Assembly (NCBI RefSeq): GCF_042100115.1
Contig: NC_091274.1
Location: 3,162,001 to 3,226,000 of the forward strand
Source: Alternaria dauci
Lineage: Eukaryota > Ascomycota > Dothideomycetes > Pleosporales > Pleosporaceae
DNA: 64,000 nucleotides
Direction: 5' to 3'
A program made the position numbers and the translations under genes. The notes beneath the pieces are model-generated. The model was not told the DNA's origin. It did no database searches and saw only the letters and a program-made list of their open reading frames with translations. How positions within the stretch are numbered: the first letter of the stretch is position 1; each line of letters opens with the position of its first letter. Below are positions 1 to 63,680 of this stretch, piece by piece.

Positions 1-1
1 C

Positions 2-2105: not shown

Positions 2106-2146
2106 CTGGAATCACGATCAGATCCATTGACTGTATCGCGTCTACA

Positions 2147-12225: not shown

Positions 12226-12442
12226 GCGTTATAGTACCCGGATTGTAGCACACGGCGAATAATGATATCGACTAACGCTACCTATCGGAAGGTATCGTTT
12301 GCATTTGATGTCACACGTCCAAGCACCGCGTCCTAGCTTTACTTGTCGTAATTCTTCTGCTTTGCTGGCTAAGACACCTTGTGCTGAATAAAGACGCCAA
12401 AAGCCGCCGAAACAGACACTGCGGTTGGCTCAAGGCTCAGCT
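12226..12442. other. Intergenic region 3' of the sugar transporter
   Basis: No gene is seen. It separates the transporter from the NACHT relic and carries the transporter's 3' untranslated sequence. Confidence 0.4.
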
Positions 12443-12595: not shown

Positions 12596-13057
12596 CTAGG
12601 CGAGTTCGAGAGTGGAAAGTCGCTTCTTCAGTCTCTAGGAGGCCTAATACATCGCGATAATTCAGGGGTTGAATCTTCAGAGAACAGTCAGTTATATAAC
12701 TGGCTCGGATCATGCACAGACACAGTATCAGCTCCCTTATCCGGGACCAGGGGTCTGGCTTCACCGCCAACACAGTACAGTAGTATCGGCCCAATCAAGG
12801 AATCTAGCGTCCCTCGCTGCGCAGTAGAAAGCCGATACATTACGGGCAGCCAATGAATGCGCAGAGTGAGGGTTTTCGCTATGCAGAGAGATATTGTACG
12901 TCATCGCTACACTATACACCAGGCGCGAGTACTGTAGAAGTCTTGACACGAATATGACGCCAAGACCATTGAGAATTTATAAAGTGATCGCCGCTTGCAT
13001 CTCTTCCGACGGCGATATCATTCCTTTACGAAATTGACAATCTCTACGAAACTGATC
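12596..13057. other. Intergenic region with promoter of the small secreted protein
   Basis: No gene is seen. The right end contains a TATA-like TTTATAAAG about 74 bp before the ATG at 13058 and a pyrimidine-rich leader. Confidence 0.5.
12976..12984 (+). promoter_or_regulatory. TATA-like element
   Basis: TTTATAAAG lies 74 bp upstream of the ATG of the small cysteine-rich secreted protein, a plausible distance for a fungal core promoter. It is a motif match only. Confidence 0.45.
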
Positions 13058-13314
13058 ATGAAGTTCCTCACACTCATCTCCGCACTTTGTGCTAGTTCTC
13101 GCGCACTCAATATCCCACGGGAGGACGGTACTATCCGCAAAATTGAAGATACCGAGCTCGTTCCCAGACAGCTCGAGCGCGAGCCCTGCTGCAATAGGGG
13201 CTTTATTCCGCCCTGTGCTTGTCCGCGTGGATGCTCAACCACATGCGTTGTAAGTTTGGAAGAAAAGTTAGAAACAAGAGGTCGGAAACCACTATACAGG
13301 AGACTTGCTGCTGA
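13058..13314 (+). CDS. Small cysteine-rich secreted protein (effector-like candidate)
   Basis: The predicted product has 68 residues from exons 13058-13249 and 13300-13314, split by a 50-nt intron (GTAAGT donor, TACAG acceptor, phase 0). Residues 1 to about 17 (MKFLTLISALCASSRAL) look like a signal peptide. A charged pro-like stretch follows, and then eight cysteines crowd the last 25 residues (44, 45, 53, 55, 59, 63, 67, 68), ending in a CC pair supplied by the second exon. No family is recognised. If the intron is not removed, the frame runs to 13402 with an unlikely basic tail. The size, signal and cysteine content match secreted effectors or antimicrobial-type peptides. The gene lies about 4 kb from the RIPed block. 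A function is not claimed. Confidence 0.6.
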
Positions 13315-14324
13315 TCTACTGTTACTGTCTACTGTCACACGGGGTTCGGCTATACTTCTTAAGGCTCGGTCCGTATTGAGGCGAGGTAGACCGAAGCGTT
13401 AGTCCGTGAGGATGTGTGGAGGTTGAGGTGGAAAAGAGGTATTGATGCTAGCCAACACGTCAAGACAGTCCGATTCTATAACGACAGAATACCTAGTTGA
13501 TAATCTGTGTAGGTGTTGAGATATCTAAGTTGACCGCAACGAGTGCCATAATGAAACGCACCCTTCCTTCATACCTGTTGCTTCAGGTCCTGTCCTCCAT
13601 GGCCTCCAGGAGACCCAGTCTTGGCGGGACGCCTTCTGATTACGTATCCTCCCTGCCTCCCGCGGTGATTACCAAACTTCTGACGAGACTGTAGTTGGTG
13701 TTCTACCACGTTACCCCTTGTTTCGCAGTTGTGACCGTGGCTCCCAACGCCTGGATCGTGCCAGGACACCCGAGGTCGCCCCGTTTTCGGCCGCGCCGCC
13801 ACCGTGCTAGCTCTTTCCAGACACGCACAGCCTTGATCTTCCGAGCGCATCCGTTGTTACGGCCCGTTTCGGTTCTGAGCACGCTCAGCCCGTCTCATCG
13901 GTAATTTGGAAGTAGGTACGACCCTATGAGACAACAAGGAGCAAAATCAAGCGCATCTTGGCAACGTCCATGCTGCATCTCAATCTTAAGACCTGCCCAG
14001 CTACCATTGCCCATATAAGTCCCCAACTCCCAATCTGGCCATCCGTCTTCATCAAGGTATACACTTCTCACCGAGGCTGTCTGTGTCGCCCATGTGTTTG
14101 ATTACCACCCTTATCACCGGGTGTAGTCATGTAGAATGCGCCAGGCCTAGAGTGACATCTTCTGATGCGGACCGCATTGGCGTCATGGCGCACTGGGTCG
14201 CTTCTGCCGAGCTCCATGGATATAGAACCTTGATCCCGTCGCGACAATAAGCTTATTCCTTTGTTCCGAGTTTTTGGGACTCTTGTCGCTCTTTATTCCG
14301 TTTCGTTTCACCGCACTGCTCACA
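13315..14324. other. Intergenic region upstream of the subtilase
   Basis: About 1 kb with no supported gene. Short frames at 13497-13904 lack any motif. The pyrimidine-rich TTTATTCCGTTTCGTTTC before the ATG at 14325 is a typical fungal promoter/leader composition. Confidence 0.5.
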
Positions 14325-17074
14325 ATGGTACATTGGAGCTGCTTCCTTCCCATTCTGGGGAGCGCATTCTCTCTCACGGCCGCTGTTTCTCCGCAGGAGT
14401 CCACTGGACAGCTAGTCCCAGGTGCTTACATCGTCGAGTTAGCAGACAGCTATGTGCGGACTAGATTTTCTACCGTTTGGCTAGCAACTAATTCGCGTAG
14501 GACTCCGCTTCCTTTTACAACGCACTCAGAGTCGACGAGGTGGGCGTAGAGCACCGCATGGATCTCAGCTACAAGCTATTCAATGGCATCTCGTTCCAGC
14601 TTCAAAATGTGTCCAATGCGGATAGTGCTGCGGCGAAGATTGCCAAAATGGATATAGTCAAGCAGATGTGGCCAGTAAGCACTCAACCTCGGCCTCGAGA
14701 CGAAGTTGTATGGAAAGGCCAGGATAAGAACTCGGCGCAAAGCGCGTTGCGGAAGCGACAAGAGGGCGGAAATACCAACGATGCATACTCGCCTCATGTC
14801 ATGACGCAAGTCGACAGACTCCGTGCTGAGGGATTCACTGGAAGGGGCACCAGGATTGCGGTCATCGACTCGGGGGCCGACTACCTGCATCCTGCACTGG
14901 GCGGTGGCTTTGGCGAAGGATTCTTGATTTCCTATGGAGCTGATTTGGTGGGAGATAACTACGACGGCACCAATACTCCTGTGCCTGACAATGATCCGTT
15001 GGACGAGTGTGAAGGCCACGGAACTCACATCGCTGGCATCGTCGCCGCTCAAGCCAACCCTATGGGCTTCACTGGCGCTGCTCCCGACGTCACTCTCGGT
15101 GTGTACAGAACCTACACATGTGGTACTGGTCAGATTTCCAATGATGTCCTAATCGGTGCATTCAATCAGGCGTTCGAAGCCGGCAGCGATATCATCACTT
15201 GTTCAATCGGTTACGATTCAGGATGGACGGAAGACCCTTGGGCTGTCGCAGTCTCACGCATCGTTGATCAGGGTGTACCATGTTTCATGTCCTCTGCTAA
15301 CGAAGGCGAGAGAGGCATGTTTTTTACCAGCGCGGCGTCGAATGGCAAGGGTGTAACGGCGGTCGCTGCCATCGATAACACTGAGACCCCTCAACTCTTG
15401 ATGAACGCGACATACACCACGGGCAACTCTTCGAGCACCTCGCCACCCGAATCCTTCGGTTGGACTTTTGGCTCCCCTTCGGACTGGGGTAATATTAGTC
15501 TTCCATTGTGGAACCTGAACAATGATCCGACTGACCCCGCAAACGGCTGTGATCCATATCCGGCTGATACTCCTAACCTGTCTAGATTCATCGTTCTGAT
15601 TCGCAGAGGAACCTGCGACTTTGCTGTCAAGGCCACTAATGCTGTGAATGCTGGAGCCAGATACATCATGCTATACAGCAATGTTGACACGTACGTATAC
15701 AGAGCATTTCAGCTCAAGCATCGCTCTAGTTGCTAATCTTTGAGCAGAGTAGTCGGCGTTTCTGTTGAAGAGGTTGATGGCGTTTCGGCCATAGGTATGG
15801 TACCCAGCGAGACCGGTGAAGCGTGGGTTGCTGATCTGGCGGCTGGGATCACCGTCACTGTCAACATCACCGATCCCGATGTTGCTCCGATGTTCATCAT
15901 CACAACACCCAATCCCGCCACCGGAGGATTCCTCAGCACCATGACACCATGGGGCCCGACATTCGAAGTCGACGTTAAGCCGCAGATTGCAGCACCAGGC
16001 GGTATAATCCTGTCCACTTGGCCGCGTGCTCTTGGTAGCTATGCTGTACTCTCTGGAACTTCTATGGCAACTCCACTTGCGGCCGCTATCACAGCGTTGA
16101 TTGCGGAGGTCCACGGTACGTTCAACCCGAAAGAGATCGAGAGCGTCCTCTCCGCGACTGCAAACCCAAATCTTTTCAATGATGGTACTACAACATTTCC
16201 TTATCTTGCCCCCGTCGCTCAGCAAGGCGCTGGCATCATTCAGACCTACGAAGCCGCATACACGAAGACCGTCTTGAGTGTGTCTAGTATGTCCTTCAAT
16301 GATACCGCCAACCGGGTCCAAACTACCAACTTCACCATTTCGAACACTGGTACCGAAGCTGTCACGTATAGCATTGCGAATGTGATTGCTGCGTCTGGCT
16401 ACACTCTCGGTGAAGGCAGCGTTTTTCCGATGACTTTCCCCAACGAGCTCGTGACCCAGGGTGCTGAACTCTCCTTCAGCGAGGAGCAAGTCACCGTCCC
16501 CGCCAGCAGCGAGATCGCCGTCAGAGTCAGCATTTCGCCGCCCGCGCTCGATGCGACCCGTCTCCCCGTGTTCAGCGGCTACATCACACTCAATGGCACT
16601 AACGGCGACTCCCTGAGCCTTCCCTACCTCGGCGTTGTTGGCAGCATGCGTGAAGCGACGGTTCTCGACGCCAACAGCACATACGTCACAAGGTCCGACG
16701 ACTTCGATTCTCTCCCCCAACCCGCCAACACCCTTTTCACGCTTCCCGCCACAGACAGTGCGCCCAACGCCAGCGCGGTGTTGCCGGAGGCTTACACCAA
16801 CTTCGCACTCGGAACTCCACTGCTCGACGTCCAGATCCTGCCCGAAGACAGCAACAACTCGTCCTCTCTGGGCAGCATGTTCGGCTTGCCTGCAACATAC
16901 GTGCCACGTGGGCAAGCTTGGTGGGACTGGAACGGGCAGCTTGCAGACGGCTCGTTTGCGCCGGCCGGGTCGTACAGGTTCCTCGTGAGAGCGCTGCACA
17001 TCTTTGGTGATGCGTCAAATGACAGCGATCACGATATTCATGAAACCACAAGCTTCAGAATTGAGTACGCATAG
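14325..17074 (+). CDS. Secreted subtilisin-like serine protease (S8) with I9, PA and Fn3-like regions
   Basis: Exons 14325-14453, 14501-15690 and 15748-17074 give 881 residues. The introns are 47 nt (phase 0, CTAAT branch) and 57 nt (phase 2, CTAAT branch). The order is: signal peptide (1 to about 20); I9-type propeptide (GAYIVELADSY..DLSYKLFNGISFQLQN); dibasic RKRQ near 127-130, a Kex2-like site; then the catalytic domain. The triad is complete: D166 (AVIDSGAD), H216 (EGHGTHIAG), S545 (SGTSMATP). An oxyanion Asn lies in SSANEG. A protease-associated domain (GCDPYPADTP..RRGTCDFAVKA) is inserted before the serine, and a long beta-rich C-terminal region follows. This is the layout of large fungal subtilases related to bacterial Vpr. 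It probably digests extracellular protein. It is the last intact gene before the AT-rich block. Confidence 0.93.
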
Positions 17075-26882: not shown

Positions 26883-27899
26883 TACTATTTTATTTTTTTT
26901 AAAATAGAAGGTTTATATTCTAAGAGTATAAGTAGTACTACTACTATTATAATTCCCTTTAAGTAGCTATAAAGCTTATATATTAGTAATACTATTACCT
27001 AAACTCCTCTATAACTACTACGTACCTAATAGGTCTTATTATACTATATTATAAGCTTCTTATATTATTATTATTATTATTAAATTAATTATCTACTACC
27101 TTATTAATACTTACCCTATATATATAAATATTAGCTATACTTACTTAATATAATTATAAGATAAGGATAAGCTAGCTAAGGACCTACTATAGCTATCTAT
27201 TATAGTCCTTACTTATAACTATTATAATATATACCTTTTACTTTATTATAAGTATACTTCTAGCTACTATTATATTACTTAGCTTCTTAATATAAATATT
27301 TTACTTTATAGTAATAAATAACCTTACTTCTATATTTATCCTAGTATTAGCTAGTAAAGTAATACTATTTAGGTAGATAAGAGTTATAGTAAATAAACTA
27401 TCTATATAAAAGAGAATTTTATATTAATCCTTAGTAGTATTATTTAATAAGTTAAGAGAAGAGAGGTAAGTTTCTAAGAAAGGGCTTAAGATACTATAAA
27501 GCTTAAGATTATTATAGTTTAAGCTAATTTAATCCTTAGTATACTAGTACTTTATATCTATATTAATATTAAGTATAATTTATATCTCTAGGAATAGTTA
27601 CTTAATACCCTTAATATAATTATATATTATAAGGCGTATAGTATAAAAAAAGGTATTTCTCTTTAGTAGTAAGCTTTAGTATAGAGTATTAAAGTAGAAG
27701 TTAAGAAATAAAAATTTAAAGAGCTAGTAGTTACTTAAATATTTCTATAGCCTTAAGTACTATAGTTATAAGCTTAGAGGTAAGCTATAAACTATAAGTA
27801 TTAACTAAAAAACTTCTTTTCTCTTTAATATTACTATAACTCTCTAGAACTACTTAAAGTTTAAGGCTTTAGTTTTAACTTATCTATTATTAAACTATA
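26883..27899. other. RIPed sequence between Helitron and element fragment
   Basis: About 1 kb of AT-rich sequence with no readable gene. It may include further degraded parts of the recombinase-helicase element, whose 3' portion becomes recognisable from about 27.9-28.0 kb. Confidence 0.4.
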
Positions 27900-29775
27900 T
27901 ATAGCTATATATAGTAAAAATAAGTATTTAGGAAATATACCTTTACTATAATTTATTATAGTATTTTTTAATAGTATTATACTTATATCTTTTACTAGTA
28001 CGTTTATTATCTAAATATAGTAATAATAAGAGAGATAAAATAATAGCTCTAGTACTAAGTAAAGTAATAAAAGTAGATATAAGTTTATCTATATTAGAAA
28101 TATATAATATTCTAATAGATTTTAATTTTAATAAATTATAAACTATATATAATAATAATAAAGAAGAATCTTTAAATAACTTATTAAATAACTAGGTTAT
28201 TAACCTTAAGATAATAATAAATATATAAACTTTCTCTACTTAATTTATTAACTATCTCTTTACTCTATATATAGAATAAAACCTTTACTTTAACTTTTTT
28301 CCTTTTTTTATATAATCTTATTTATAACATAACTACTATTACTTTCTTTTCTTTAAGAATAATAAGAAAAGAAAATACTACTTATTATTATATTATATAT
28401 CTAAGATATAATAGAGTAGAATATATACTTAGTTATATATTAACTATATTAGATAGTTAGAAACTATATAGTATATATAGAAAGTATTACTATTATTATA
28501 GTTAATAGTATATACGTAGAGATAAAAAGTAAGATTTATATATAAAGATATAAAAGTACTTTACTAAATTTTCTTCTATAGTAAGGAAGTATCTTATTAA
28601 GATAATATCTATATTAGATTCTATATATAAAAAGTTTTATAAAAAAGTATAAATTATATATAGCTAAGTATAAATAGTAATTAGAAAGTAAAAGAAAAAA
28701 GAAAAAAGAAAAATAAATTAAAATAAATTAAAATAAATTAAAATAAATTAAAATAAATTAAAATAAATTAAAATAAATTAAAATAAATTAAAATAAATTA
28801 AAATAAATTAAAATAAATTAAAATAAATTAAAATAAATTAAAATAAATTAAAATAAATTAAAATAAATTAAAATAAATTAAAATAAATTAAAATAAATTA
28901 AAATAAATTAAAATAAATTAAAATAAATTAAAATAAATTAAAATAAATTAAAATAAATTAAAATAAATTAAAATAAATTAAAATAAATTAAAATAAATTA
29001 AAATAAATTAAAAAATAAATTTAAAAAGAATAATAAGAGAAGGAAAAAAAGATATATTATTAAACTATATATTTAAGAACTTAAACTCCTTACTAAAACT
29101 ACTATCTTATAATATAAGATCTATAGCTAGTAAAGTTAGTATTATAGAAGATAAATTTAAATATAAAAACTATTTACTAGAGTAGTTACTTTTAAATACT
29201 AAAGGTAGAGAAGGGTTACTTTTAAATTTAAAAGGTAGAGAAGAGTAGTTCTCTTCTAATACTAGTAGACTTAGTTAAAAGTAACTCTATAGAAAATAAT
29301 AATAATAAAAAAAAATCTAAAGTAGATAAATAAAGTTCTCTAGCTTTAGGTAGAGAGAAGAATACTATAAAAGAAATAAGTAGTAAGAATAAGATAAGAG
29401 TAAGTATATAAATTTAAAAGGAATAAAAATAAGTAAATATATAAAGTAGAATAAGTAGAAAAGGTAAGAAGAGTGAAATAAGTACTATAAAATAATAATA
29501 AAAATTTAAAAGAAATAGTTCGAGGAGAGAAAATAGTAAGAGAAATAAAATAGGGTATATAAGTAAAAAAGATAAAAAAGAATAACTAAGAATATAAAGT
29601 AAAAGAAGAAGAAGAATAATAATAATAATAAAGAAAAGTGTAAAGAAGAGAAATTTAGTTATAAAAAAGAAATTAAAAGTAGTAGTTAGAAAGATATAAA
29701 GTAATAAAAGAAGATTAACGTAAAAAGGTATACTAATATAAACTTAAAAAGAAAAGTATAAGAAAGTATAAGAGA
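27900..29775 (+). mobile_element. 3' fragment of the recombinase-helicase element
   Basis: This parallels the 3' end and downstream region of the element at 36.7-44.3 kb: the last coding part (28020-28160 against about 42765-42900), the AT-rich 3' region, and a purine-rich tail. C/T differences in the first half, such as AATACATAATATCC in the complete copy against AATATATAATATTC here, are RIP-type. From 29382 to 29775 the two copies are identical base for base. The 30-unit decamer array at 28711 is unique to this copy. Confidence 0.75.
28711..29010. repeat. Perfect 30 x 10-bp tandem array
   Basis: AAATAAATTA is repeated exactly thirty times without a single mismatch. The equivalent site in the second copy of the element (near 43490) has only GAAAAATTAAAAAAAAG, so the array arose inside this copy. 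The unit has no C or G, so RIP cannot mark it. Perfect identity still argues for recent expansion. Confidence 0.97.
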
Positions 29776-31289
29776 AGATTACTATTAAAAGATAAGAAAA
29801 AAGAATTAAAAAAAAATATAGAAAGAAATAGAAAGAAAGAAAGAAATAAAAAGATAAGGGTAATAAAATATAAGAAAAGAGAAATATAAAGTAGTAGAAT
29901 AAAGGAGGAATAAAGAATAAAATAAGAAGTAAAGAATAAAAGAAAGTAAGTAGGAATAAAGAAAGAAAAGAAAAGTAGAAGAAAAGAAAGAGAAGATATA
30001 ACTAAAAAAGAAGAAAGAGATAATTTAAAGTAAAAGGATAAAAGAAAAATAAAAAAAATTAAATAATAATAAGAAGTAAGAAAGAAGAGATAGAAAGAAT
30101 TAAAAAAAATAAAAGTATAAGAAGTTATTTCTTACTAGGTATAGGAGGTACGTTTATAAGATTATATAACGTAGTAGAAACCTCTTTTACTTCTAAGAAA
30201 AGGTTAGTAAAAGATAAAAAACTCTGGATAACTACTATTCTATACCTTTTCTTAGTTCTTTAACTTTGTTAAGAAGTTCTAAAATAAGTAAATCTTTTTT
30301 AGATTCTACTTCCTCCCTAATAAAAAGTTAATAACTATAATAACTATAATAAAAAAAAAACTTACTTAATAAGTATTTTCCTAGGCCTTCCTCTTCCTCT
30401 TTTCTCTTTAGTAATAAAAGAAGAAGGTAGAGTAGTATAAGGTATATAAGTAGAGAGAGAAGAAGAAGACTTCTTAGGAATAATAATAGAGGGAGATATC
30501 TTTACTAATAAAAGAGTAGAGAGTAGAGAGTAGAGAGTAAAAAGTAGTAATAGTAGTAGTAGTAAACTCTTTAGAGTAGAGAGTAAAGAAGAATAAAGAA
30601 GAAAGAGAGTTTTAAGTATATATATCTGAACTTAAGAACTCTAGAGTACGTTCTAAAGAAAAGATTAATAATAAGATTATAAATACTATAAGGATAATTC
30701 TAAGTTAAGAAAGAGATAAGAAAAGCTAAGGAGCTAAAAAATTAGCTAAGAAGAGGGGTAGATAAGAAAGGAAAAGATAAGGAAAGCTAAGGAGCTAAAA
30801 GAGAAGCTAAGAAGAAGGGTAGATAAGAAAAGAAAAGATAGAGATAAGCTAAGAAAAGATAAAGATAAGCTAGTACGTAATATAAAGGTATTAGAAGTAG
30901 AGAATTAAGGTTTCTTCTCTATAATATAAAGGTAGTAGAAGTAAAGAATTATAGTTCCTTACTAAGAGGATTACCTTAGGGCTACTAGATCTAACTAAAT
31001 TCTAGTAAGATAATAAAAGCTAATAAGAAATTACTAGTAGCCCTAAGCTTTAAAAATTAAGTAGTCTTAAGATATATATTATTTACTTTATTAATATAAG
31101 AAAAAGAATATAAAGAAATAGTTTTATATAAATTTTTAGTATAATTTTAAATATATACTTAGTTTTATAGTAGTAACTTTAACTATTAAGTTATTTATAA
31201 AAATTACTTTAGGTTAAGTTTTAGTATTCTTTATATAATTTTAGCTAGTACTATAAGTTACCTTAGGATTTAAAGCTATTATAGCCTAA
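29776..31289. other. Purine-rich, then AT-rich, gene-free stretch
   Basis: From about 29.3 to 30.13 kb the plus strand is overwhelmingly A and G, a strong strand asymmetry that continues past the end of the duplicated segment. The rest is RIPed sequence of no recognisable coding content. A 74-bp segment at 30878-30951 recurs at 34481-34554. Confidence 0.5.
30878..30951 (+). repeat. 74-bp dispersed repeat, copy 1
   Basis: Begins TAATATAAAGGTATTAGAAG and matches 34481-34554 along its full length. The two copies are in the same orientation, 3.6 kb apart. Confidence 0.9.
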
Positions 31290-34554: not shown

Positions 34555-34620
34555 GGGTTTCTCTAGAAGTAAAGAATTTATTTAATATTATTTTAAAAAT
34601 TATAATAAAATAGATATAAC

Positions 34621-34895
34621 TTCTTAGTACTAGTATTAGCTAAGCTAAAAATAGCTTAGTTTATTAAATTAGGGTTAGGGTTTAACCCTAATTAGGGTTA
34701 AGAAATTATTATATACTAGAACTAAAGAATTTAGTACTAAAAATTATAATAGAATAGAAATAAGTTCTTAGTACTTATATTAGCTAAGCTAAAAATAGCT
34801 TAGTTTATTAAATTAGGGTTAAGGTTTTACCCTAATTAGGGTTAAGAAATTACTATATACTAGAAGTAAAGAATTTAGTACTAGAACTAGAGAAT
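34621..34895. repeat. 144-bp tandem repeat carrying TTAGGG motifs
   Basis: Two units (34621-34764 and from 34765) each contain a hairpin (AGCTAAGCTAAAAATAGCTT) and a telomere-like palindromic core, TTAGGGTTAGGG facing CCCTAATTAGGG in the first unit. TTAGGG is the usual fungal telomere repeat and has no CA/TG, so RIP cannot erode it. It lies about 350 bp left of the divergent gene of the recombinase-helicase element. Confidence 0.85.
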
Positions 34896-35241: not shown

Positions 35242-35679
35242 TTACGTATTCTCTTCTAACTCTCTATTAATAAAGTTATAATATTCTACTTCTAACGCTA
35301 TAGTAGAAAGGAATTCTCTTTTTTCTATAATACTATTATCTACTATAGATACGTAGTAGAAGGTCTTAGTACTTTTATAATAAATAATTAGAAAATAACT
35401 CTTTATTTTAAAAGTCTTAGCTCTAGATATTAGGTACGTAGTTAAGCTATCTAGTTTAGTAATATCTACTAAGAAGCCTAGATAGCCTATAACTTTATTA
35501 CTAGGCTTATATCTTATATTATAAGCTTTCCTTCCTACTATAAATATAGAAATAAGATTATTATCTTTAAAAGTAGATTTTATAAACGTATTTACGTCTT
35601 TTAACTCTTTTTTATAAGAAAATAACTTAGTATTTCTCTTATTAAGATAAGAAAGGTTATTACTATTTTTAGAAAACAT
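35242..35679 (-). CDS. Uncharacterised 145-aa protein, divergent from the helicase gene
   Basis: An open frame of 145 codons with a genuine ATG at 35679, inside the extreme RIP block, where random frames of this length are rare. I do not recognise the protein. It is rich in Lys, Asn, Ile, Ser and Tyr. It reads MFSKNSNNLSYLNKRN at the start and has a beta-rich middle (LISIFIVGRKAYNIRY, GYLGFLVDI) and an acidic end. Like the large gene it contains no Trp and no Met after the start. It is transcribed away from the large gene, with about 1 kb between them. Confidence 0.5.
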   Translation of the reverse strand: MFSKNSNNLSYLNKRNTKLFSYKKELKDVNTFIKSTFKDNNLISIFIVGRKAYNIRYKPSNKVIGYLGFLVDITKLDSLTTYLISRAKTFKIKSYFLIIYYKSTKTFYYVSIVDNSIIEKREFLSTIALEVEYYNFINRELEENT

Positions 35680-36721: not shown

Positions 36722-39700
36722 ATGTCTTTAGAACGCGAAGTACTAGGATTTAACCTAGTTTATTATTTAAAATATAAACTTATACTCTGTAACTCTAAAG
36801 AGTGTAGGTATATATTAAATAGTAATAAAGAGAATACTTTAGATAATATTAAAAAGCATCTTACTACGAAGCATAGCCTTAATAAATATAAGTTAACTTA
36901 TATATTAAGTAAATTAAAAGAGTATTCTTTTAATAACTTCGAAGATATAGTTATAGAAAATTATACTAGTTATTTCTTAGATCTAGAAGAGAAAGAAGCT
37001 TATTTATGCGTAGTTAATAATTGTAATTATTTAACTACTAGTTTTAAAATATTTAAACAGCATATTATAAGCTTAAAGCATAATATAATTATTAGAGCTA
37101 GAGATAAAGATATTTCTAAATACTATAGAATAGTAAAAGTACAAAGCTTACATTCTAATACTAAGTTAATAAAATACTTTATTACTTCGAACTTTTATAA
37201 AAGTATTTTAGATATAGATAATCCTAGTAATACTATAGAGAATAGTAATTCTAATACTAAAGATAGCTTTCTATTATATAAAGAAGCTTTAGTTTAAGAT
37301 AAAGATATTTTTACTTTAGATTATAGTAATTTAAGTACGAAAGAAATCCCTTCTTTATTAAGAAAGTTAGATTTTACTAAGTATTATAATAATAAAGAAC
37401 TTAATAAGTATTTTAATCTTCTAATAATACCTATTAAGAAGTATAATACTTTACTAGAACGTCTTTATTATATTATATTCTCTACTATCTCTAGTTATAG
37501 CTTAATAAGCTTAGAAGATAATATAAATATCTATAGTAAAAGAATACTACAACAGCTTAGAACCGAGCGATTAATTACTATAGATAATAAGAATTTATTT
37601 CCTTTTAAAGCTCTAGAGCCTAGTAGTAAGAGAATATACTATAGTACGTTAAGTTTATATTTTATTTATATAATAAGGCTTTATAAATTAAAGTTAGAAA
37701 ACTCTATAGCTAAAGACGAGCAGCCCTATCTATCTACTAAAGTAGAAAGTTATATTTCTACTTTATTAGAAGATATTAAACTAAGTATAACTAAAGAAGA
37801 TAAGTATAATAAATTATTAGAAGAAGAGTATTTAAAAGAAGGTAGTAATAATACTACCTTAATAGAAGATATTAAAAATAAGTTAATAAGTATTATAGGT
37901 AAAAGAAATAAAGTAATTACTTTATTTATAGTTAATACTATAAAAGAACTATTAGAAGAGCGTTTAGGACAAGCTAGCTTTTCGAATTATAGTATTTTTA
38001 ATAGTAGTTTAATTACTTTCCTAGCGTTAAGAGCTATTAAAACTCCGAATAAACTAGCTAAAGAAGCTAGTAGTATAGCGCAGGATTGTTCGTATTTAAT
38101 ATATACTATACGATTAGTATTTTTAGAAATTATTAAAAAGATTTATAAAGAAGATTTAGAAAATTATAATAATAAAAGAATTACGACTCTCCCTATCGTA
38201 GAGGATATATTTAATAATTATTATCGAAAATATATTAGCTATACTAGTAATAATAGCTTCGAAGAGCTAACTAGAATAAGATTATACTGTCTTAATATAG
38301 CTAAAAACACAGTTAGTAAAACTAGAATTTTCGAATTCGATATTAATACTATTATAGTAGATAGTAAAGAAGTTAAGATAGATAATATAAAGATATTATA
38401 TAAAACTATAGAAGATAAACTAGAAGAAATACTATTTAAAGATTTATTATATCTAAATTATAAAGATTTAGATATAGATATTAATAGTATAAAAGATAAT
38501 TATAATAATAATAAAGAAGATTTTTATTTCCTAAAAGAAAATACTAATACTATAAACTTAAACCTAGAGAAGAAAAGTAATAGTTTATTAGAAAGTATAT
38601 TTAAAGAAAACTCTATCTTAAATTCTATATTTATTAAAGAGAATAAAACTAAAGATAAAGATTATATATATAATAGAGAAAATATAAGAAATAACTTAGC
38701 TACTAGGCTAGAGTTTATAAAACTACTTAGTGTAGCTTTATATTTACTAGCTGCGTGCCCTATTAGGGGTACAGAAATAGAGAATTTAAAATATATTAAT
38801 AGTAGTAAGTTAGGGGAGAGAAATCTCTTTATAGATAATTATACTAAGTTAATAAGAGTAGAAACTACGTATAGTAAAAGTAATAATATTACGAATAAAG
38901 ATAATAATATAGTAAGGTATTTTAGTCCTAAGCTTTCTAATATTATTAAAGTATATCTTAGCTTTTATATACCTATTTATAAGTTTTTATATTTTATAGA
39001 ATATAATAAAGTAAATACTAGCCCTTATATTCTAGAAGATAAAGAAATACCTATAAGTAGTAGTACTATTAGTAATAAACTAGGTATACTAACCGAAACG
39101 TATTTATTTACTAGAATAACAATTAGTAGTTATAGACAATTAATTAAATATATACTTAATTCTAGATTAAATATAGATATAGAGATAAGTAAAGAAGAAG
39201 AAGAAGAAGATAATATAAAAGATTTATTATTTAATCACTCTACTAAAGTAGCTAATTTAAACTACGGCCGAGATTATAATATATTTAGAACTAAGAATTC
39301 GAGTTTAGAACAAAAATCTAGAGATTTAACTACGAAGGTATTTAACTATTTTAATTTATTAGAGAGAGATATAAGCTTATCTACTATCTTTATAAGGAAT
39401 AATAATATAAATAATAATACTTTAGAAGAAATAAGCTCTTCTAGCTCTAGTAGTTCGAGTATTAAAAGTAATATAAATACTTCTACTTTTTATAATAATA
39501 CTTTAGAGAAAATAAACTCTAGAAGTTCTAGTATAGAGGGTAATAGTACTACTATAGATAATAATATTACTTTAGAGAATATAAGTATAAGTAGCTCTAG
39601 TATAAAAAGTAATATAGATATAAATACTTTTAATACTATTTCTTTAGATAAAATAAACTCTAGAAGTACTAGTATAGAAAGTAATAATAATAACTTAGAG

Positions 39701-42700
39701 AATAATATTACTTTAGAAGATATAACCTCTAGAAGTACTAGTAGTAAGAGTAATATAAGTATTATTAAAAGTAAACCTCTAGGTATTTTAAAAAAGATAA
39801 ATAGAAGTAGTACTAATAAAAAAGAGTATAGTACTTCTAGTAGCTCTAGTAGCTCTAGTAGTAGTAGTAGTAAAAGAAAAAAAATAAATACTATATTAAA
39901 AAGACCTAGAACTAGTAATTCTAGTTCTATACTAAATAGTATTAAGAATAAAAAAAGTAAACTTAAGTCTAGTAGTTTATTATCTAGCTCTTCTACTAGT
40001 AATAATAGTTTTATAGATATAGATACTATAGATATTTCTAGTCCTAATAAACTAGCTACTAAAATAGATACGTTAGACTTAACTACTATTAATTCTAGTT
40101 TAGAAAGTATAGTTAAGAATACTAATAGTATTTCTAAGGATAAAAACTATAAAAGTAGTATTTATAAAAGTCCTAAAGTTATTATACCTAGTAAGAAAAA
40201 AGATAATAATATTATTACTATTTCTAGCTCTAGTTCTAGTTCTAGTACTAGTATTAATACTACTACTAGTAATAAAGAAGATAATACTAAGAATAATAAT
40301 ATCTCTAATTTTATTACTTATAGAATAAAGAATAGAAACTCTAAAGTAAGAGTAAATAAAAATATAGTTAATAATAATAAATATTCTAGTAGCTCTTCTA
40401 GTTCTAGTTCTATAAGTAATAGTAGTATTAAGTTAAACTCTAGTAAAGATAAAAGTAAAAAAAACTTCTTAAAAGTTAATAATATTATTAAACCTAGTTC
40501 TACGTTTAAGAATAATAAAAGTAGTAAAGGAAAAGAAAAAGCTATAGATTTAGAGTATAATAGCTCCTCTAGTAATAATATATTACTAGAAGATAGTAGT
40601 AAAATAAATAAAGACCTAATTAATAAGCTAAAAGAGAAAGTAAATCTAGGTTTAGATATAGAATTCGAGTTTAATACTTTATTAACAGAAGTAGAACAAA
40701 ATCTATTACTAAAAGAAATAAGTATAATTAGTAGTAATAATAATTCTCTATTAAATAATAAAGTAGGAGAGTCTTCTACTAGTAATATTAGTAAAATTAA
40801 AGATAAATCTTTAATAACTAAAGAAAAACCTCTATATTCTAGCTTTACGCATAAAAGAGAAGCTAGTAAAATACTAGAAAATACTACTAAACTAAGTAAA
40901 ATATCTATAAACCCTACTAAAGATATTAGTTTAGTTACTTCTACTATTAATACCTCTAAGAATCTTAATAGAATTAATAAAGATAATATATTAAGAGCTT
41001 TACCTATAGAAGATAGAAAGAAACTAGTAAAACAACGTATTATAAATAAGAAAATAGAAAGAGAATTATTATCTAAACCTAAGAAAAGCTTAGAAGAATA
41101 CGTAGAAGAATTATATAAAATAATTAATAAAGATATTAAAAGTTTTAAATCTTTAAAACAAAAAGAAGCTATTAATTCTATTATAGAATTAGTACCTTTT
41201 CTTACTTATATTACGAAAACAGGAGGAGGTAAAAGCTTATTATTCTTTTTACCTCCTTTTATTTATCCTAATAGAAGATATATAGTAATAGTACCTAGAA
41301 TAAGCTTAATAGAAGATTTATATAAAAGAGCTAAAGAATTTAACCTTAATACTTCTATATTTAACGAAGATACTATAGATTTAGAAAGTAATTTAATATT
41401 TATAAGCTTAGAAGCTAGTTATAATCCTATATTTCGTAATTATATATATAGTTTAAAATCTTTAAACGTTAATATAACGATATACTTAGAAGAAGCGCAT
41501 TTATTATTACTAGAAGATAATTTTAGAAATATTATTTCTAGATTAAAAAGTATTTTAAATCTAGAAATACAATTAGTATTTCTAACCGCTACGTTACCTA
41601 GTATACTAGAAGACTTATTAGAAGAATACTTTCTACTAGATAATAACGTAGTAATAAGAGATTCTACGTCTAGAGAAAATATAGAATATAATATAATTAC
41701 TACTAAAGAGCCTTTAGTATTTTTAAAAGAAAGTATACGTAAAGAAATAAATATAAAGGAAGAAGATAAATATATAGTATTTACTAATACTAAAGAAGAA
41801 GCTCTAAAGTATAGTAAACTATTAGATATACCTTATTACTTTAGCGAAATAGAAGAAGAAAAGAAGAAAGAAAATTCTTTAAAATTAAAAACCTTTTTAA
41901 ATCCTACCTCTTCTATTAAAGGGATTATAGCTACTATAGCGTTAATAGTAGGCTTAGACTATCCTAATATAAAAGTAGTTTATTTTCTACCTACTATATC
42001 TAGTTTAATTAATACTATACAAGGTATAGGTAGAATAAGAGAGAAAGGAAAAGCGTTTATTATAATATCTAATAATAATATAACGTTACCTATATTAGAT
42101 AAAAGTATTCTAGATAATACTAAAGAAAATATAAGTATAGAAGAATTTAAAGCTTTAGATAATTATAAAGCTAAAGAATTAATAACTTCTAAAACGTGCT
42201 ATAGAGCTATAATAGAAAATTACTTAGATAATTCGAATATAGAAAAGTGTAATACAAATACTATAAAGTGTAGTATTTGTATTTCTAAAGACGAGAGCTA
42301 TAGTACTCTAAGTAATAAACTTAATACTTTAGAGTTAAATAAATCTTTATTAAAAGAAAAATTAGAATTAAAATTAGATTTTATATATAATAGCTTTTGT
42401 ATTAATTGCTTTATTAGGAAAAAAGTAAATAAAGCTTTTTTGCATAATATTAGTAGCTGTACCGAATATAAAGACTTTAAAGAAAAGCATATTAAGAGTA
42501 TAGCTAATTTTACTAGGAATAATAAGTTAAATCTAAGTAAATCTAGCTTATTACCTTTAAATATAGTAGATTTTAAGTGTATTCTACCTAGATATATATG
42601 TACTTCGAATAGCTGTAAATATAAAGATATTATATTTACTTTTGTTTATTTATTACAAGAAGTAATAGAAGATACTACGTTTTCTAAATACTTATATTTA

Positions 42701-42910
42701 TTTCCTAAGGTATTATCTCTAAAAGAAGAATATAATAAAGAACCTAATCTATATAGTAATAATAAGAAAGATAAAATAATAGCTTTAGTACTAAGTAAAG
42801 TAATAAAAGTAGATATAAGCTTATCTATATTAGAAATACATAATATCCTAATAGATTTTAATTTTAATAAATTACAAACTATATTCGAAGATGAAAGAGT
42901 AGAATCTTAA
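36722..42910 (+). pseudogene. Giant ZnF / tyrosine-recombinase-like / RecQ-like helicase frame, one internal stop
   Basis: From ATG 36722 to TAA 42910 the same frame runs 2,062 codons with a single stop, TAA 37295-37297 (codon 192, possibly a former CAA). In order: two C2H2 fingers resembling OrsD/DUF3505 (C23, C28, H46, H51; C96, C101, H114, H120); a tyrosine-recombinase-like domain with R682 (CPIRGTE), R805 (SSYRQL), H839 (NHSTKVA) and Y848 (NYGRD); a Ser/Asn-rich linker; and a RecQ-like helicase with K1504 (TGGGKSLLF), EEAH 1590-1593, TATLP 1622-1626 and QGIGRIR from 1767. A Cys-rich C-terminus follows. After the ATG there is no Met, Trp, CTG or GTG codon and one TTG. It resembles telomere-linked RecQ helicases. 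It could be broken by the stop, or read in two parts. Confidence 0.8.
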
Positions 42911-44372
42911 AATAACTTATTTAATAACTAGGTTATAAAAATTAAGATTATAATAAATATATAAACTTTCTTTACTTAATTTATAAACTATCTCTTTACT
43001 CTATATATAGAATAAAAGCTTTATTTTAACTATTTTTCTTTTTTTATAAGATCTTATTTATAATATAACTACTATTACTTTCTTTTCTTTAAGAATATAT
43101 GTATATTTATATTTATTATAGTATATTATACTTTAAAGAATAATAATAATAAGAAAGGAAAATACTACTTATTATTATATAGTATATCTAGGATATAAAA
43201 GAGTAAAATATATACTTAGTTATATATTAACTATATTAGATAGTTAGATTCTATATAGTATATATAGAAAGTATTACTATTATTATAGTTAATACTATAT
43301 ACGTAGAGATAAAAAGTAAGAGTTTTATATAAAGATATAAAAGTACTTAGTTAATTTTTCTTCTATAGTAAAGAAGTATCTTATTAAGATAATATCTATA
43401 TTAGATTCTATATATAAAAGGTTTTATAAAGAAGTATAAATCATATATAGCTAAGTATAAATAGTAATTAGAAAGTAAAAGAAAAAAGAAAAATTAAAAA
43501 AAAGATTTTAAAAAGAATAATAAGAGAAGGAAAAAAAGATATATTATTAAACTACGTATTAAAGAACTCGAACTCCTCACTAAAACTACTATCTAATAAA
43601 GTAGGATCTATAGCTAGTAAAGTTAGTATTATAGAAGATAAATTTAACTATAAAAACTACTTACTAGAGTTATTACTTTCGAATTCAAAAGGTAGAGAAG
43701 AGTAATACTCTTCTAATACTAATAGACTTAGTTAAACGTAACTCTATAGAAAATAATAATAATAAGAAAAAAAAACTAAAAGAGATAAATAACGTTCTAT
43801 AGCTTTAGGTAGAGAGAAGAATACTATAAAAGAAATAAGTAGTATATAAAAAATTATAAAAAGTAAGAATAAGATAAGAGTAAGTATATAAATTTAAAAG
43901 GAATAAAAATAAGTAAATATATAAAGTAGAATAAGTAGAAAAGGTAAGAAGAGTGAAATAAGTACTATAAAATAATAATAAAAATTTAAAAGAAATAGTT
44001 CGAGGAGAGAAAATAGTAAGAGAAATAAAATAGGGTATATAAGTAAAAAAGATAAAAAAGAATAACTAAGAATATAAAGTAAAAGAAGAAGAAGAATAAT
44101 AATAATAATAAAGAAAAGTGTAAAGAAGAGAAATTTAGTTATAAAAAAGAAATTAAAAGTAGTAGTTAGAAAGATATAAAGTAATAAAAGAAGATTAACG
44201 TAAAAAGGTATACTAATATAAACTTAAAAAGAAAAGTATAAGAAAGTATAAGAGAGAATTATTATTAACTATATAAGGTTATAGGATGTAGGGTCTATAT
44301 CCTTAAAGAACTAGTCTGTGCGTAAGAAAATTAGCTAGATATCCTAGCTATATATCCTCTATTTAGTCCTAG
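42911..44372. other. 3' region of the element, purine-rich tail
   Basis: No gene is seen. 43862-44255 is identical to 29382-29775. After 44255 the homology stops abruptly, which marks the right end of the duplicated sequence. AT-rich, then normal-looking sequence follows up to the 21-bp array. Confidence 0.6.
43862..44255 (+). repeat. 394-bp segment identical to 29382-29775
   Basis: Aligning line by line at an offset of 14,480 bp, I find no mismatch. Flanking parts of the two copies differ at many sites, so this stretch is much younger in divergence than its surroundings, or has been homogenised. Confidence 0.92.
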
Positions 44373-46765: not shown

Positions 46766-49700
46766 ATGTCTCTTCCTAACTATATTGTAGCCGATTATAC
46801 TAATAAGATTATAACGTGCGCGCTGCACTTGTATGCTATCCTTCTAAGTAAAGTACTCTCGTATTTTAACGAAGAGTATTAGGAAGAGACTACCCTAGGG
46901 GAGCGCCGCTATATTTAAGAGGCTGTTAATACTCTTGTTTCTAGCAGTGACTATTATATAAAGTATATAGACTTTATTATACCTAATACACCTGTAGAGG
47001 CCTTTATTAGCCTTAAACTATATAAAGGATCTTACTAGTGCCGTCTTTGCACTAAGATTATTACTAGTATATCTGCCTGCTATAATATGCACAGCTATCT
47101 CCGCGAATATAGATTGAATAGTCCCTAGAATACTAGTTCTTATGGGAGAGAGGAGTAGTATAATACACGAGTGCGGATTGTTACATTGTAACAACTATTT
47201 AAGTCTGTTCTACTAGAGTATCGATCCTTAGGGTTAACATAAAAGTTTCTAGTCTACCCCTATAGAGAGTTACCCTACCGAGCTGTTAATAATAAAGAAC
47301 TGAACCTCGAGCACGGTGCCCTGTAATCTCTAACGCTAGTGTCTGCACTTAGCGATAGAACACCTAAATAAAGTAATAAGGAGACTTATATAGCTGAGGA
47401 CAGCGAAGAAGATAACGCTGTATTGCGCGAACAATTAGGTCTAGTATTACGCTAGGCAGAGGAAGCGTAAGTAGAATAATTCGCCTCTTTCCTAGGGGCT
47501 CCCTCTATCTAGACTAACCCTTAGATCGCTACCTGTAGGATTGTAGGCACGTTTAAGGACTTCTAGATATAGGTAGAGGCTCTAGCCTACGTCTTAGTTC
47601 CCTCCTCTAATATAGAACTAAAGCTGTTCTTCCTCTACACTACTATTAAGGGTATAGTGCGCACCTAGTAGAATGTTAGTCTATAGACTTCTCGCTACGC
47701 CTGTATCCGTGTAATGCAAGAGACATGCACCGACATACCTACCTTTCCTTTTAAACCCTACTAGTCTTATAACCTATACTACGCGCTGTTACTACAGAAG
47801 ATCTTTGTATTCTTCTACTGTGTACTAGTTAAGAAATAGAGGTAACTATCTACACTAGTACTACAGATGCATTAATAAAAAGCCTAGGATAAGATCGTAG
47901 AGTATCTTAACACCCTTATAGCTAACTTTCCTGTAGTAAACGAACGATATAGCGAAACGTCACTAGGCGCACTTGAAGCCCTCTGCTATTAGTTCTAGAT
48001 CAGCCTTATTAAGCAGACGGCCTGCTAACGTGACACTAAACTTGCCCTCGCTACTCTAGTTGCTTTCCTTGCACTATCGCCGTCACGCACTAGATTCTTA
48101 GAGGCGTACAACTTTGCGACACATATATTAGCTATTAAGAAGATGTATAGATTTGCCGCACTACAGAAACTAAGAGATAAGTTTCAGCCTCCTGTTAATA
48201 CTCTGGCACCGCCTAATACGTATATGTAAGAGGAGACTTCTTAAGCTACTATAGTATAAGAGGTTAAAAGTCTACTAGAAGAATAAGAGTCTGCAGGGGA
48301 AAGTCCTCCTGTAGTAGAGGATCGCAATTGTGTAATCGTAAACAACTTTAGATTATAGGTTTATAATTACCTTACTATAGAATACCCTACCTCTATAAAT
48401 TAGCTTATTAAACGGGGGCGCCTTCTAAGCTAATTTTAATATAGAGAAAATCTTGATGCATTTGTCTACTAGAATAGAGAAGACGTTACTATCCGCGGGC
48501 TACGTATAAATTTAACTAAATACACCTAGATAGTATTCAAAGAGTATAATAAGGCCTCTAGTATTCTGTATAAGCTCGTATACGTTTCTAGTCGATTAGG
48601 TCTTCCTACTATACTATAGGACTCTCTTGTTAATAACCTAAAGAACGCTGCACTAGGATACAGCGTCTTCAACCTAGGTAACCTAGAACTTTAGCACGGA
48701 AAAGATTTCATTTTCTAATAACTTATTAGAGGAGTTAACTGTAAGGCTTTTAAATCTAGCCTTATTACTAATCTTTAAGACTTTACTTAAGTACAACAAT
48801 ACTGCAACCTTATATAGAAGTTCCTAGCGCATCTTCTCTGTCTTATTTATCTAATAAGCGGACAACCTGCCTAAGGAACTAAGCTCCTTAGTGTGCAGCT
48901 GGAGAATGGTCTTATTATAGGAATGCGAAACATCTACCTCTATAATAAGCTTATTACTATTATTCCCCGTTACTATAAGGGTTATAACAGAGATAAGTCT
49001 GTAAAGACTATCTATTGTTTCCTGCTAAGAGAGATTAGGTCTCTTCTTATGTGGTACACCTAGCTTGTACGACCCTTCTACCTTACAGTCTAGTTACAGC
49101 TTAAGTTATCCCTATAGAACTACTACTACGAGTAAGTAAAAAGTGTACTACTCTAGCTAGATAATAGTAGGAAATAACGTATAATATCTTAATTACTTAG
49201 CTAAGTTCTTCGTCGAGCATTAGAGCGTTGGCTTAGTAAAGAGATTAACATTAGTATAATAAGATATCTGATTATTGCCTTTAGACGTAAGATTAGTAGT
49301 ATGGATAGGTTACTACATAAGTTAACTAAGGAAGATGTAGAGGATATTGTTAATGAGGCTGAGGCTAAATCTTAAGAGATGTAAGCAGGTTATTCTGCGG
49401 AGGTTATAACTGTAGTGTACGCTCTTAACATCGCTAAGATGTTTATACGTAGGTTCGACTAACTAGATGCCCACTTTAAGATATCTACTTGATAGTATCG
49501 TACCCTTACGTTTAGTCCTGTTCTAGAGGACTTTACACCCCTACTAGAGAGTGTTATACTAGTTGCTCTTGTAAAGTAAGCAGAAAGAGACTTAGTGAAC
49601 TACTCTAGGTTACTCTAGGCTAATTTCGGTAATAACGTGCACTTTAGAGGAGAATAGAAGGCTGTTATTACAGCTATTATAGTAGGTGAACTAATAGTTG

Positions 49701-52300
49701 TGTATATTATAGGTACGGGAGCTAGTAAAAGCCTTACCTTCCTACTGCCTGTATACTTCTATAGTTACGGTTAGACAATTATTATTGTCCCTCTTACAGC
49801 GCTTAGGACTAATCTCCTAGAGCGATATTAAGCACTTAGAATCTAAGCTACTATCTAGTAGCACGGTGCCTATAACGAGACTGCATCTATTGTTCTTGCT
49901 ACACTAGAGAGCATTTTATATAAGAACTTCTCTACCTTTGTCTACTAGTAAGCTGCACTTAGTGTACTAGAGAGGATAGTTATAGATAAGTTTTACTACG
50001 TTATCCTTAAGGACGTGTCCTACCGTTATTATCTACTGTAGCTCTATAATATTACGCGGTACTTTACACGTATAACACTTCTGTCTACTACTATACCTGT
50101 TAGTTATTAGGAAGACGCATTTCGACTGCTAGGACTACTAAGCGATATAATGCTATTCTAAGAGCCTACTACGCGACTGAATATTAGCTATACTATGCGT
50201 TATATTAGTAGCACTAGTATCTAGAGCGTTGACAAGATAGGAGAATATATTATAAAAGAGATTAGACTTAAGAGGAAAATAATAGTATATATTAAGTTTG
50301 CTACAACAGCTTTAGAGTTAGTAACAAAGCTTACTAGTTTTGTTTACTATAGTAAGATAGTTAAGAAAGACAAGGCAGTAAATATCTAAGCTTTTAGGGC
50401 TGTAAAGTCTAGATGTATAGTAATAACTAGTGCGTTAACTAAGGGGATACACTTCGACGACGTCGATACTATTATCCGCATTAGGCTACTAGTATCGCTA
50501 ATATCTTACAACTAAGAGACTAGAAGAGGAGGACGTAACGGGCGTAGGTGTAAAGCTATTCTAATCACCTCTAACAGTATTAAGAACACGTATTTTACAA
50601 AGGTAAGTAAGGCTATACAGTTAAAGATATAGGTATATATATAGTATAGGTCTAGTATACAACAGTGCCGCCGTCGTGTTCTTAATAAATACTTTAACAG
50701 TAATGCTAAACGCACTATATACCTGCTAGCAGAAGCCTAGTGCGATATTTATAAAGAGCGATTATATCGTCCCTTAGGAATTAGATATATTAAACAAGTT
50801 AAAGGCGGCGGACATTAAGATAGTATAGGTTCTAACCACTGCACTATTCCTACAACACCTGCTAAACGTAGTAGTCTAGTAGCGCCTACAACGCCTTACA
50901 CCTCTAACACTAGCACTATAATATCTCTTTCGCCCTACGTATTGTCGACTACAGGGCTATATACTAAGTCCTCCCCTCTAATATAGGTAAAGGCCTCTAA
51001 CTATAACACAACGCCTAGTCGAGTACTAACCTTACTAAACACAGCGAACGTTACATTAGAGTCCCCTTTTAATAACTTAATATATAAGCGCAACTACAGT
51101 TAGGGTAAGTATAGGTGATCCGAACAGTTACGTACCTAGATAATATCTAATATATAAGTAGTGTAAAGCTCTAGTCTAAGCCGCGATAACTCCTAAATAA
51201 GCTCTATAACGACTTATAAATAAGTAAGATAAGAGCAAGAACTTAAGTTTAACACTTACCCTAGTCTAGATACTGCGAAGAAAAGGGCGAACGTATTCGA
51301 GTACGAGATACTAGAAACGTATACGTTCTAGTCTTTACATTACCTAGTATACTATGTTGCTAGGGACGACTTTAATCACCTAAAGAGCTAATGTGGAAGC
51401 CTTGTTAATGCTACTATAAAAGAGTACCGTATCCGCATGAATAAAAAATAGGGATAGGGGTAGTACTAGTAGTACCTTCTTCTAACTAACTGCTATCTAG
51501 AGTGGCAAATAAACGGCACTACACGAATAAACAATAAGCTACAGAGAAGGAATCTATGCAAAGACAAATTCGTGATCTAAGATACTTAGGCCTACCTCTA
51601 GGTAAAATCTAACCTTGTTCGCAACTAGTAGATAGCAAATATACGCGAAGAAGAAGGGGACAAGTGGGACCCTAACTAGGACGATGACTTCCGTTAACAT
51701 TTTCATAGTGTAGTGAATTTTAGAGAAGACTATAAAGCTAGTTAGATTATCTTAGGTCTTAACCGCATTATATATAAGATGTTTATAGACATAGAAGAAA
51801 CCTAAGCGATGCCGCTAGTTTTGATAGCTAGCGGTAGGCTACTAAATAGGTGAAGGGTAAGGTGCTATTAATATAGTATATTAGCTTAGGCGTATATAGA
51901 AAACCTGTCTTCTGACCCCTATAGGCGCCTTATTCTCCCGTACCAATACGGTTGTGGCGTAAAAGATACTAACTGCGATATAGACAGAGAAACCGGCATT
52001 TAAGTAAGGTCTACGAGCATATTATTATAGTTTACTAAATACTACGTAGATATGACACTATAGCGACCTAGTAAGAACCCGCTCTCTAATTTTATTAATG
52101 AAGGAGAATATTACTATATAATATAAGAGTTAGACTTACCTAAAAGAATGGACTAACTAATAGGGTATATAAAATAGTAAGGTATAGTGAATACAGGGCA
52201 CTAGAGCGGAATAGCTGTCTAGGGTTAGGCTAGGCGCTACTACACTGGGATCTAACATATGAGTACTATAGGGTATCGCCTTTAGGGTATACAGGAAAGT
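46766..52300 (+). pseudogene. RIP-dead tyrosine-recombinase-like / RecQ-like helicase gene
   Basis: From ATG 46766 (MSLPNYIVADYTNK) one frame runs without a frameshift to about 51.1 kb and stays readable to about 52.3 kb, broken only by TAG/TAA (rarely TGA) where Gln, Trp or Arg is expected. Domains follow the order of the gene at 36722: finger region (CRLC.., MHSYLREY), recombinase-like part (LISGQPA.GTKLL; AGYSAEVITVVYALNIAKM, with the expected His now Tyr), and RecQ helicase (FRGE.KAVITAII; GTGASKSLTFLLP at about 49.71 kb; TRLNISYTMR; VITSALTKGIHFDD; GGRNGRRCKAILIT). The part after 51.1 kb is unrecognised. This copy is clearly non-functional. Confidence 0.8.
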
Positions 52301-62867: not shown

Positions 62868-62954
62868 ATACTATAGAGGTAAACAGTATAACTAGTATAG
62901 GGTTAGAGGTAGGATAGTAGCTATAGGGGTCTACCCCTAGGGGTAAGATAGTAT

Positions 62955-63680
62955 CTATAGAGTACTACCCTTAGGGGCGAGATAGTAGCCGTAGAGTGCT
63001 ACCCCCGGGGGCGAGATAGTAGCCGTAGAGTGCTGCCCCCAGGGGCGAGATAGTAGGCGCGGGTTGCGGCAAGTTACTGTAAGTTACTACCCCCGGGGGC
63101 GAGATAGTAGCCGTAGAGTGCTGCCCCCAGGGGCGAGATAGTAGGCGCGGGTTGCGGCAAGTTGCTGTAAGTTACTGCCCCTAGGGGCGAGATAGTAGGC
63201 GTACACGTAGCGCTAATGTTACTGTCGTTATGCTTGGTGAAATGCTGTGTCTGTAGATCTAATGAGTGAAATTGCACCTCCGCCTGTCTACTCTTCGTAG
63301 ATGGTGCGTATAGTAGTATCTAGATAGTAGATGTAGAGTGCTGTAAGTTGCTGCCCCCAGGGGCGAGATAGTAGGCGTAGAGTGCTGCCCCCGGGGCGAG
63401 ATAGTAGGCATAGAGTGCTGCCCCCGGGGGCGAGATAGTAGCCGTAGAGTGCTACCCCCGGGGGCGAGATAGTAGCCGTAGAGTGCTGCCCCCAGGGGCG
63501 AGATAGTAGCCGTAGAGTGCTGCCCCCGGGGGCGAGATAGTAGCCGTAGAGTGCTGCCCCCGGGGGCGAGATAGTAGCCGTAGAGTGCTGCCCCCGGGGG
63601 CGAGATAGTAGGCGTAGAGTGCTGCCCCCAGGGGCGAGATAGTAGCCGCGGATTGCCGTAAGGTGCTGCCCTTGGGGGCG
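62955..63680. repeat. 34-bp GC-rich tandem repeat with palindromic core
   Basis: Many units of GTAGAGTGCTGCCCCCGGGG + GCGAGATAGTAGCC, each holding the palindrome GCCCCCGGGGGC or a variant. It is interrupted by a unique stretch around 63190-63330. The frames that run through it on the minus strand (LAPGGSTLRLLSRP repeats) are by-products. The position just inside the element end suggests subterminal binding-site repeats. Confidence 0.9.

Follow-up and report, generated by a model that had tools for sequence, protein, structure and literature searches.

The 64,000-nucleotide stretch of the Alternaria dauci genome analysed here (assembly GCF_042100115.1, contig NC_091274.1, positions 3,162,001 to 3,226,000, forward strand; termed the window) is crossed by an AT-rich block, extending from ~17 to 44.3 kb, in which GC content is 11-31% per kb and CpA and TpG, the targets of repeat-induced point mutation (RIP), are nearly absent. 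The block is bordered by ordinary DNA of 50-58% GC on the left and by a milder RIP zone on the right. Within it lies a single forward frame, 36722..42910, of 2,063 codons including an internal TAA (codon 192, 37295-37297) and the terminal stop, with a GC content of ~21%. On sequence grounds this frame is a TLH-type gene, encoding a weakly OrsD-like zinc-finger start followed by a tyrosine recombinase and a RecQ-like helicase. Its parts are as follows.

36755..37069, + strand: OrsD-like region, codons 12-116 (E 7e-5, 23.7 bits).
38315..39406, + strand: tyrosine-recombinase catalytic domain, from alignments, a structural model and fold comparison.
39445..40950 (limits approximate), + strand: low-complexity linker rich in Ser, Asn and Thr, with in-frame tandem repeats, from the sequence.
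41159..42037, + strand: RecQ-like helicase core (DEAD and Helicase_C), followed by Cys-rich stretches, from profile matches.

The helicase core matches Pfam DEAD (2.3e-11) and Helicase_C (3e-7) together with the BLM profile (E 3e-27), which assigns it to the RecQ type; across the frame these are the only Pfam domains found after the internal stop, with weak zinc-finger matches before it. The OrsD-like region of the window copy does not reach the curated Pfam cut-off of 26.6 bits (PF12013), and a precomputed OrsD domain is present in four of ten database relatives (P0004, P0005, P0007 and P0008). The best fold matches of the predicted model of the recombinase domain are XerH, XerA and Cre, as would be expected of the catalytic fold; with a 720-residue model Foldseek returned nothing at E<=0.001, and VIA placed XerA and Cre at the top for the same model. 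In the alignments of the relatives R490, K527 and R613 (numbered in the frame after the stop) are invariant, Y656 is at least nearly so, and H647 is retained in six of the ten. The frame carries the R...K...R...H...Y array of the tyrosine recombinase superfamily, these being the residues to which we presume the catalytic roles fall. The Starship captain profile (DUF3435) was not among the Pfam matches at E<=1, a comparison of profiles and not of folds. The encoded protein would be expected to have recombinase and helicase activity.

The base composition around the frame is that of RIP-affected DNA, combining CpA/TpG depletion with an excess of TpA. The ratio (CA+TG)/(AC+GT) is 0.00-0.26 across the 26 one-kb bins of positions 18001-44000, and at most 0.12 in 24 of them, compared with 0.98-1.42 across the 17 bins of positions 1-17000, in agreement with a preliminary description of this DNA that had placed the frame in an extreme RIP block. 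It could be argued that a long frame might open by chance in such DNA. Over the length of the frame, however, the other frames contain 298 and 462 stops on the forward strand and 215, 58 and 330 on the reverse, the longest open run elsewhere in 17.5-36.65 kb is 170 codons, and in 200 order-1 Markov simulations of 6.2 kb the longest six-frame open run averaged 64 and reached at most 118. The stop-to-stop runs within the frame are 214 and 1,870 codons. Chance was ruled out on the stop counts and the simulations, and the earlier statement that the frame stays open for 6.2 kb save for codon 192 is borne out. It had also been said that there are no start codons inside; ATG, CTG and GTG are indeed absent after the initial ATG, but one TTG occurs at codon 1907. 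The translation contains one Met and, as had been noted, no Trp. Antisense open runs at 39490-40146 (218 codons) and 40318-41205 (295 codons) are probably a by-product of the frame's codon usage.

Only 57 CpA/TpG dinucleotides are left in the frame, and 44 of them lie in codons for His (11), Gln (16) and Cys (17), the residues at which they had been claimed mainly to survive. Observed/expected CpA is 0.43 at codon positions 1-2 and 0.05 and 0.016 in the other phases, and the corresponding values for TpG are 0.28, 0.05 and 0.02, while three adjoining stretches retain 0.00-0.08 of expectation in every phase. Among codons for Thr, Ser, Ala and Pro there are 6 NCA against 252 NCT. The relatives agree with the frame, on average, at 63% of 30 alignable Cys, His and Gln positions and at 34% of 1,284 others. 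As the silent targets have almost gone, the coding ones have been kept and Cys, His and Gln are the better conserved, the remaining targets appear to be mostly those that the protein needs.

A TLH gene of normal composition is found in the same assembly on contig C5 (31665-36086; 1,474 codons from stop to stop, 48% GC, 26 Met and 18 Trp). Its recombinase and helicase parts are arranged as in the family proteins, which match them piecewise at 23-32% identity, and its start is zinc-finger-like as judged by eye; the window frame departs from it in extreme AT-richness, scarce RIP targets, the lack of Trp and the single Met. Target density is 9.2 per kb in the window frame and 144 in the C5 gene. 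When a script mutated every target, the window frame acquired 16 stops, 39 missense and 2 silent codons, whereas the C5 gene acquired 85 stops, 369 missense and 140 silent codons, or ~58 stops per 1,000 codons. A 637-codon segment of the C5 helicase has seven long, decayed copies elsewhere. Five lie 35-40 kb from the starts of C2, C8, C9 and C10 or 88 kb from the end of C8, and the remaining two are at C10:1944600 and in the window, where the copy serves as a control:

49205..51118, + strand: decayed copy of the normal-composition TLH helicase, with 27-28 stops in ~638 codons.

The seven copies hold 22, 25, 27, 35, 36, 37 and 39 stops per ~637 codons, with no more than one TGA each, and RIP-like indices were obtained at both places measured, the window and the right end of C8. 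These figures bear on the possibility that the frame is an ordinary TLH gene struck by RIP once or twice, recently, and left with one stop by luck. The internal TAA is indeed a RIP-type change, and the block consists largely of RIP products, but neither the outcome of fully mutating the C5 gene nor the stops in its decayed copies resembles a frame with a single interruption, and the relatives share the composition of the frame. A single recent RIP event was rejected on these three grounds, and we regard it as highly improbable.

The relatives comprise P0001-P0010, from a first search, and P0011, from an alignment-based wider protein search that gave four matches, among them P0011 and the bacterial RecQ protein P0012, which is excluded from every count of relatives. 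A protein search with the recombinase domain alone returned four matches, all relatives already known, and a search of viral contigs gave 11 pattern matches, none of which was confirmed. Identity across the full alignment is 23-57% for the ten, five of which exceed 1,600 residues. Over the 16,291 residues of the 11 relatives there are 25 Met (1-7 per protein) and 5 Trp (0-1 per protein). Since they are as poor in Trp and Met as the frame, the shedding of RIP targets looks old and would predate the copies in this genome unless it occurred in parallel. It had been proposed that the frame was long adapted to a RIP-prone home by losing targets; the near exhaustion of silent CpA/TpG and the retention of coding ones, the conservation of its Cys, His and Gln and the composition of the relatives all speak for that proposal. 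An alternative is that an AT-rich organism or plasmid lacking RIP was the source of the gene; its composition would then be plain AT bias, with which a GC content of ~21% and the similar amino-acid bias of the relatives would agree. AT bias, however, is not generally expected to purge Met (ATG) or NCA codons, or to deplete CpA/TpG most in silent phases, and the same loss is seen in the flank and in neighbouring sequence, where there is a decayed relative of the unit's 3' end. A foreign AT-rich gene was rejected on the loss of Met and NCA, the silent-phase depletion and the loss in the flank, and appears very unlikely.

The frame is present three times in the assembly, in the window and, truncated, on C4 and C6. 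In window coordinates, the C4 copy breaks at 41197 and picks up again at 44255, and the C6 copy breaks at 39043, where it is joined to GC-rich 34-bp repeats. The upstream unit has five copies, one of them short, and 5' parts of the unit near the ends of C2 and C1 are joined to the same repeats, so that the element is multi-copy at several ends. The C6 copy lies ~26-28 kb from a CCCTAA-capped contig start, the C4 copy ~55 kb from a contig end whose last 10 kb is without telomere repeats, and the partial units 27 kb (C1) and 39 kb (C2) from ends. The window copy is followed by an inner TTAGGG array of C3 at a distance of ~121 kb and by the end of the contig at 240 kb. Across the copies, location at chromosome ends is that of a TLH gene. 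The TTAGGG array, ~120 kb inside C3 and running from C3:3325556 to at least 3325681, is either an interstitial telomere or an assembly join. GC-rich 34-bp tandem repeats also occur at 62904-63648 of the window, with similar ones directly at the C1, C2 and C6 break points, as if subtelomeres had been cut and rejoined there.

Comparison of the copies bears directly on codon 192, which is TAA in the window and C4 and Gln in C6, a RIP-type difference; the preliminary description had suggested looking for strain variation here, and variation exists between copies. Eight of the 20 variable in-frame columns across the three copies are RIP-type at CpA/TpG, and all eight change an amino acid or create a stop. 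In six the target is kept in C6 and TpA is common to the window and C4; the other two are in C4 alone and strike H51 and H114, zinc ligands as judged by spacing. Three further in-frame flags, in the window only, were dropped as the sister copies also differ at the neighbouring base. In the flank 3 of 55 variable columns were flagged as RIP-type, a weak count in which the neighbouring base was taken from the window alone. At window 37068-37069 and in a neighbouring 145-codon frame (see below), copies differ several times at two adjacent bases, CG against TA (ACG versus ATA), which suggests a passage from CpG to TpG to TpA in two steps. It is conceivable that the window copy works, codon 192 being bypassed by an intron, readthrough or editing so that the whole protein is made, and a single internal stop in 2,063 codons would be consistent with this. 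Against it are the sense codon at this position in C6 and the RIP-type difference, the near-neutral pattern of copy differences described below, and the fact that the 160 bases upstream contain neither a GTRWGT nor a GTANG donor, a search confined to those donors; relatives P0002 and P0006, moreover, retain residues through this stretch as judged by eye. An intron, one of the possibilities raised earlier, was therefore rejected as far as common donors are concerned, and a working window copy is unlikely.

We therefore favour the view, to which we give a probability of roughly 0.8, that the frame is a subtelomeric TLH-type gene whose lineage was long repeated in a RIP-active fungus, became adapted to RIP and has been caught just after breaking. 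Each duplication of the gene would have exposed it to RIP, converting CpA/TpG to TpA; copies that gained stops or lost key residues would have died, and those hit only at silent or tolerated targets would have survived. Over many rounds nearly all silent CpA/TpG would have been removed and Trp and internal Met replaced, with hardly any targets left except those required for His, Gln or Cys, for a small number of other residues or for the start codon. The outcome would be a gene nearly immune to further RIP, with near-identical copies at several chromosome ends. After the latest spread residual targets may still have been struck, the window and C4 copies coming to share the codon-192 stop, while other copies would have been cut by subtelomeric rearrangement. 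Repeated RIP and past selection on function would account for what is observed directly, namely the architecture, the target depletion and its phase pattern, the conservation of retained residues, the copies and the RIP-type differences between them.

Several observations weigh against this reading. Selection was judged by the silent share of copy differences rather than by a formal dN/dS, and silent differences from the window make up 8 of 26 in one sister and 5 of 20 in C6, where three of the 20 (codons 772-773) coincide with the break and could be edge effects; the neutral expectation is 19-27%. Current selection on the frame is thus not visible among the young copies. The claim that the frame was kept open by selection fits its past but not its present, silent shares being at or slightly above neutral, and on the youngest time scale these shares correspond to the dN/dS near 1 that the preliminary description had set against selection. 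Divergence between copies is greater in the 5' flank, with 74 differences in 1,911 bp and 97 in 2,055 bp, than in the frame, with 26 and 20. The excess holds at silent sites too, and in 42 of the 55 flank columns it is the window that differs from the other copies. As the window is odd in the flank and silent sites are equally low, the frame's low divergence probably stems from recombination between ends, and its likeness relative to the flank was dropped as a sign of purifying selection. A best-candidate search of the assembly found no complete stop-free copy; taken with the near-neutral differences, this leads us to read the window copy as newly broken, and probably freshly dead. The C5 control itself has three in-frame stops, and RIP indices cover just two of the seven decayed copies. 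Codon-level depletion in the relatives was deduced from protein composition, the composition that they share may have arisen by convergence, and databases of open frames are biased toward survivors. Finally, Foldseek alone gave no match for the recombinase domain at E<=0.001, its best E value being 0.032 (XerA and Cre).

Other elements adjoin the frame.

35242..35679, - strand: divergent 145-codon frame with no CpA and one TpG, which is its start codon.
34594..34883, + strand: 144-bp direct repeat, carrying telomere-like motifs, on the 5' border of the shared unit, from repeat analysis.
27335..29796, + strand: older, decayed relative of the unit's 3' end, 68-69% identical to 41911-44277, its frame interrupted by stops.

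The 145-codon frame is open in the C4 and C6 copies; C1 has its last third only, and in C2 the start reads ATA and there is one TAA (tblastn). Because the DNA around it is equally target-free, the only points in its favour are its length and the fact that it is open in C4 and C6 as well. Pfam offers only FAM101 (E 0.23-0.3), and a search of PDB gave no match. Head-to-head telomere-like motifs are repeated at 34669-34850, as they are beside the C4 and C6 copies. A 10-bp unit is present in thirty perfect copies at 28710-29013, inside the old decayed 3' copy. The matches listed in a self-comparison of the AT-rich block were mostly at 56-60% and were taken as composition noise; the 68-69% match was used. 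A tentative extension, which we think possible but rather less likely than not to be right, is that the unit is a selfish subtelomeric element comprising two or more genes, among them the recombinase-helicase and the 145-codon frame, made RIP-proof by its sequence in an inherited state common to the relatives. Escape would then lie in the rewriting of codons and amino acids rather than in hiding from homology recognition. Two similarly hardened genes would suit such a unit; that its 3' end is whole in the window only, and decayed at 27335-29796, speaks against it.

RIP is considered highly effective at destroying repeats. The present findings suggest that a gene present in repeated copies can acquire near-immunity to it: across 2,062 codons hardly any targets are left, and the loss extends to the composition of the protein. 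Escape from RIP by sequence thus becomes directly testable, and the targets retained reveal residues that the protein could not give up. It should be emphasized that such genes can be concealed by gene finders and by RIP masks. Cryptons and Starship captains are fungal tyrosine recombinases; here, in contrast, the recombinase is joined to a RecQ-like helicase. Among the titles and abstracts returned by searches of openly licensed papers, none described a gene stripped of CpA/TpG by RIP. Fungal TLH genes, mentioned in PMC11893274 and PMC12857005, are subtelomeric and multi-copy and encode a RecQ-like helicase, all of which applies to the window frame; the latter paper also treats TLH genes and RIP at Fusarium telomeres, PMC8381367 mentions TLH in passing, and passages of PMC12543289 and PMC10787394 provide background on RIP. 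In Mycosphaerella graminicola a low-GC (34.7%) subtelomeric RecQ family of 13 copies, seven of full length, is reported (PMC4522978). Like the present gene it is a large, low-GC, telomere-tied RecQ frame in a fungus with RIP, but GC content here is ~21%, and the section on that family draws no link to the loss of RIP targets. Selection for transposable-element variants that shed RIP targets has been suggested for the RIP-like hypermutation of Microbotryum, where the target is TpCpG (PMC5381629); what is a suggestion there is seen here as the near-complete loss of CpA/TpG from one large gene.

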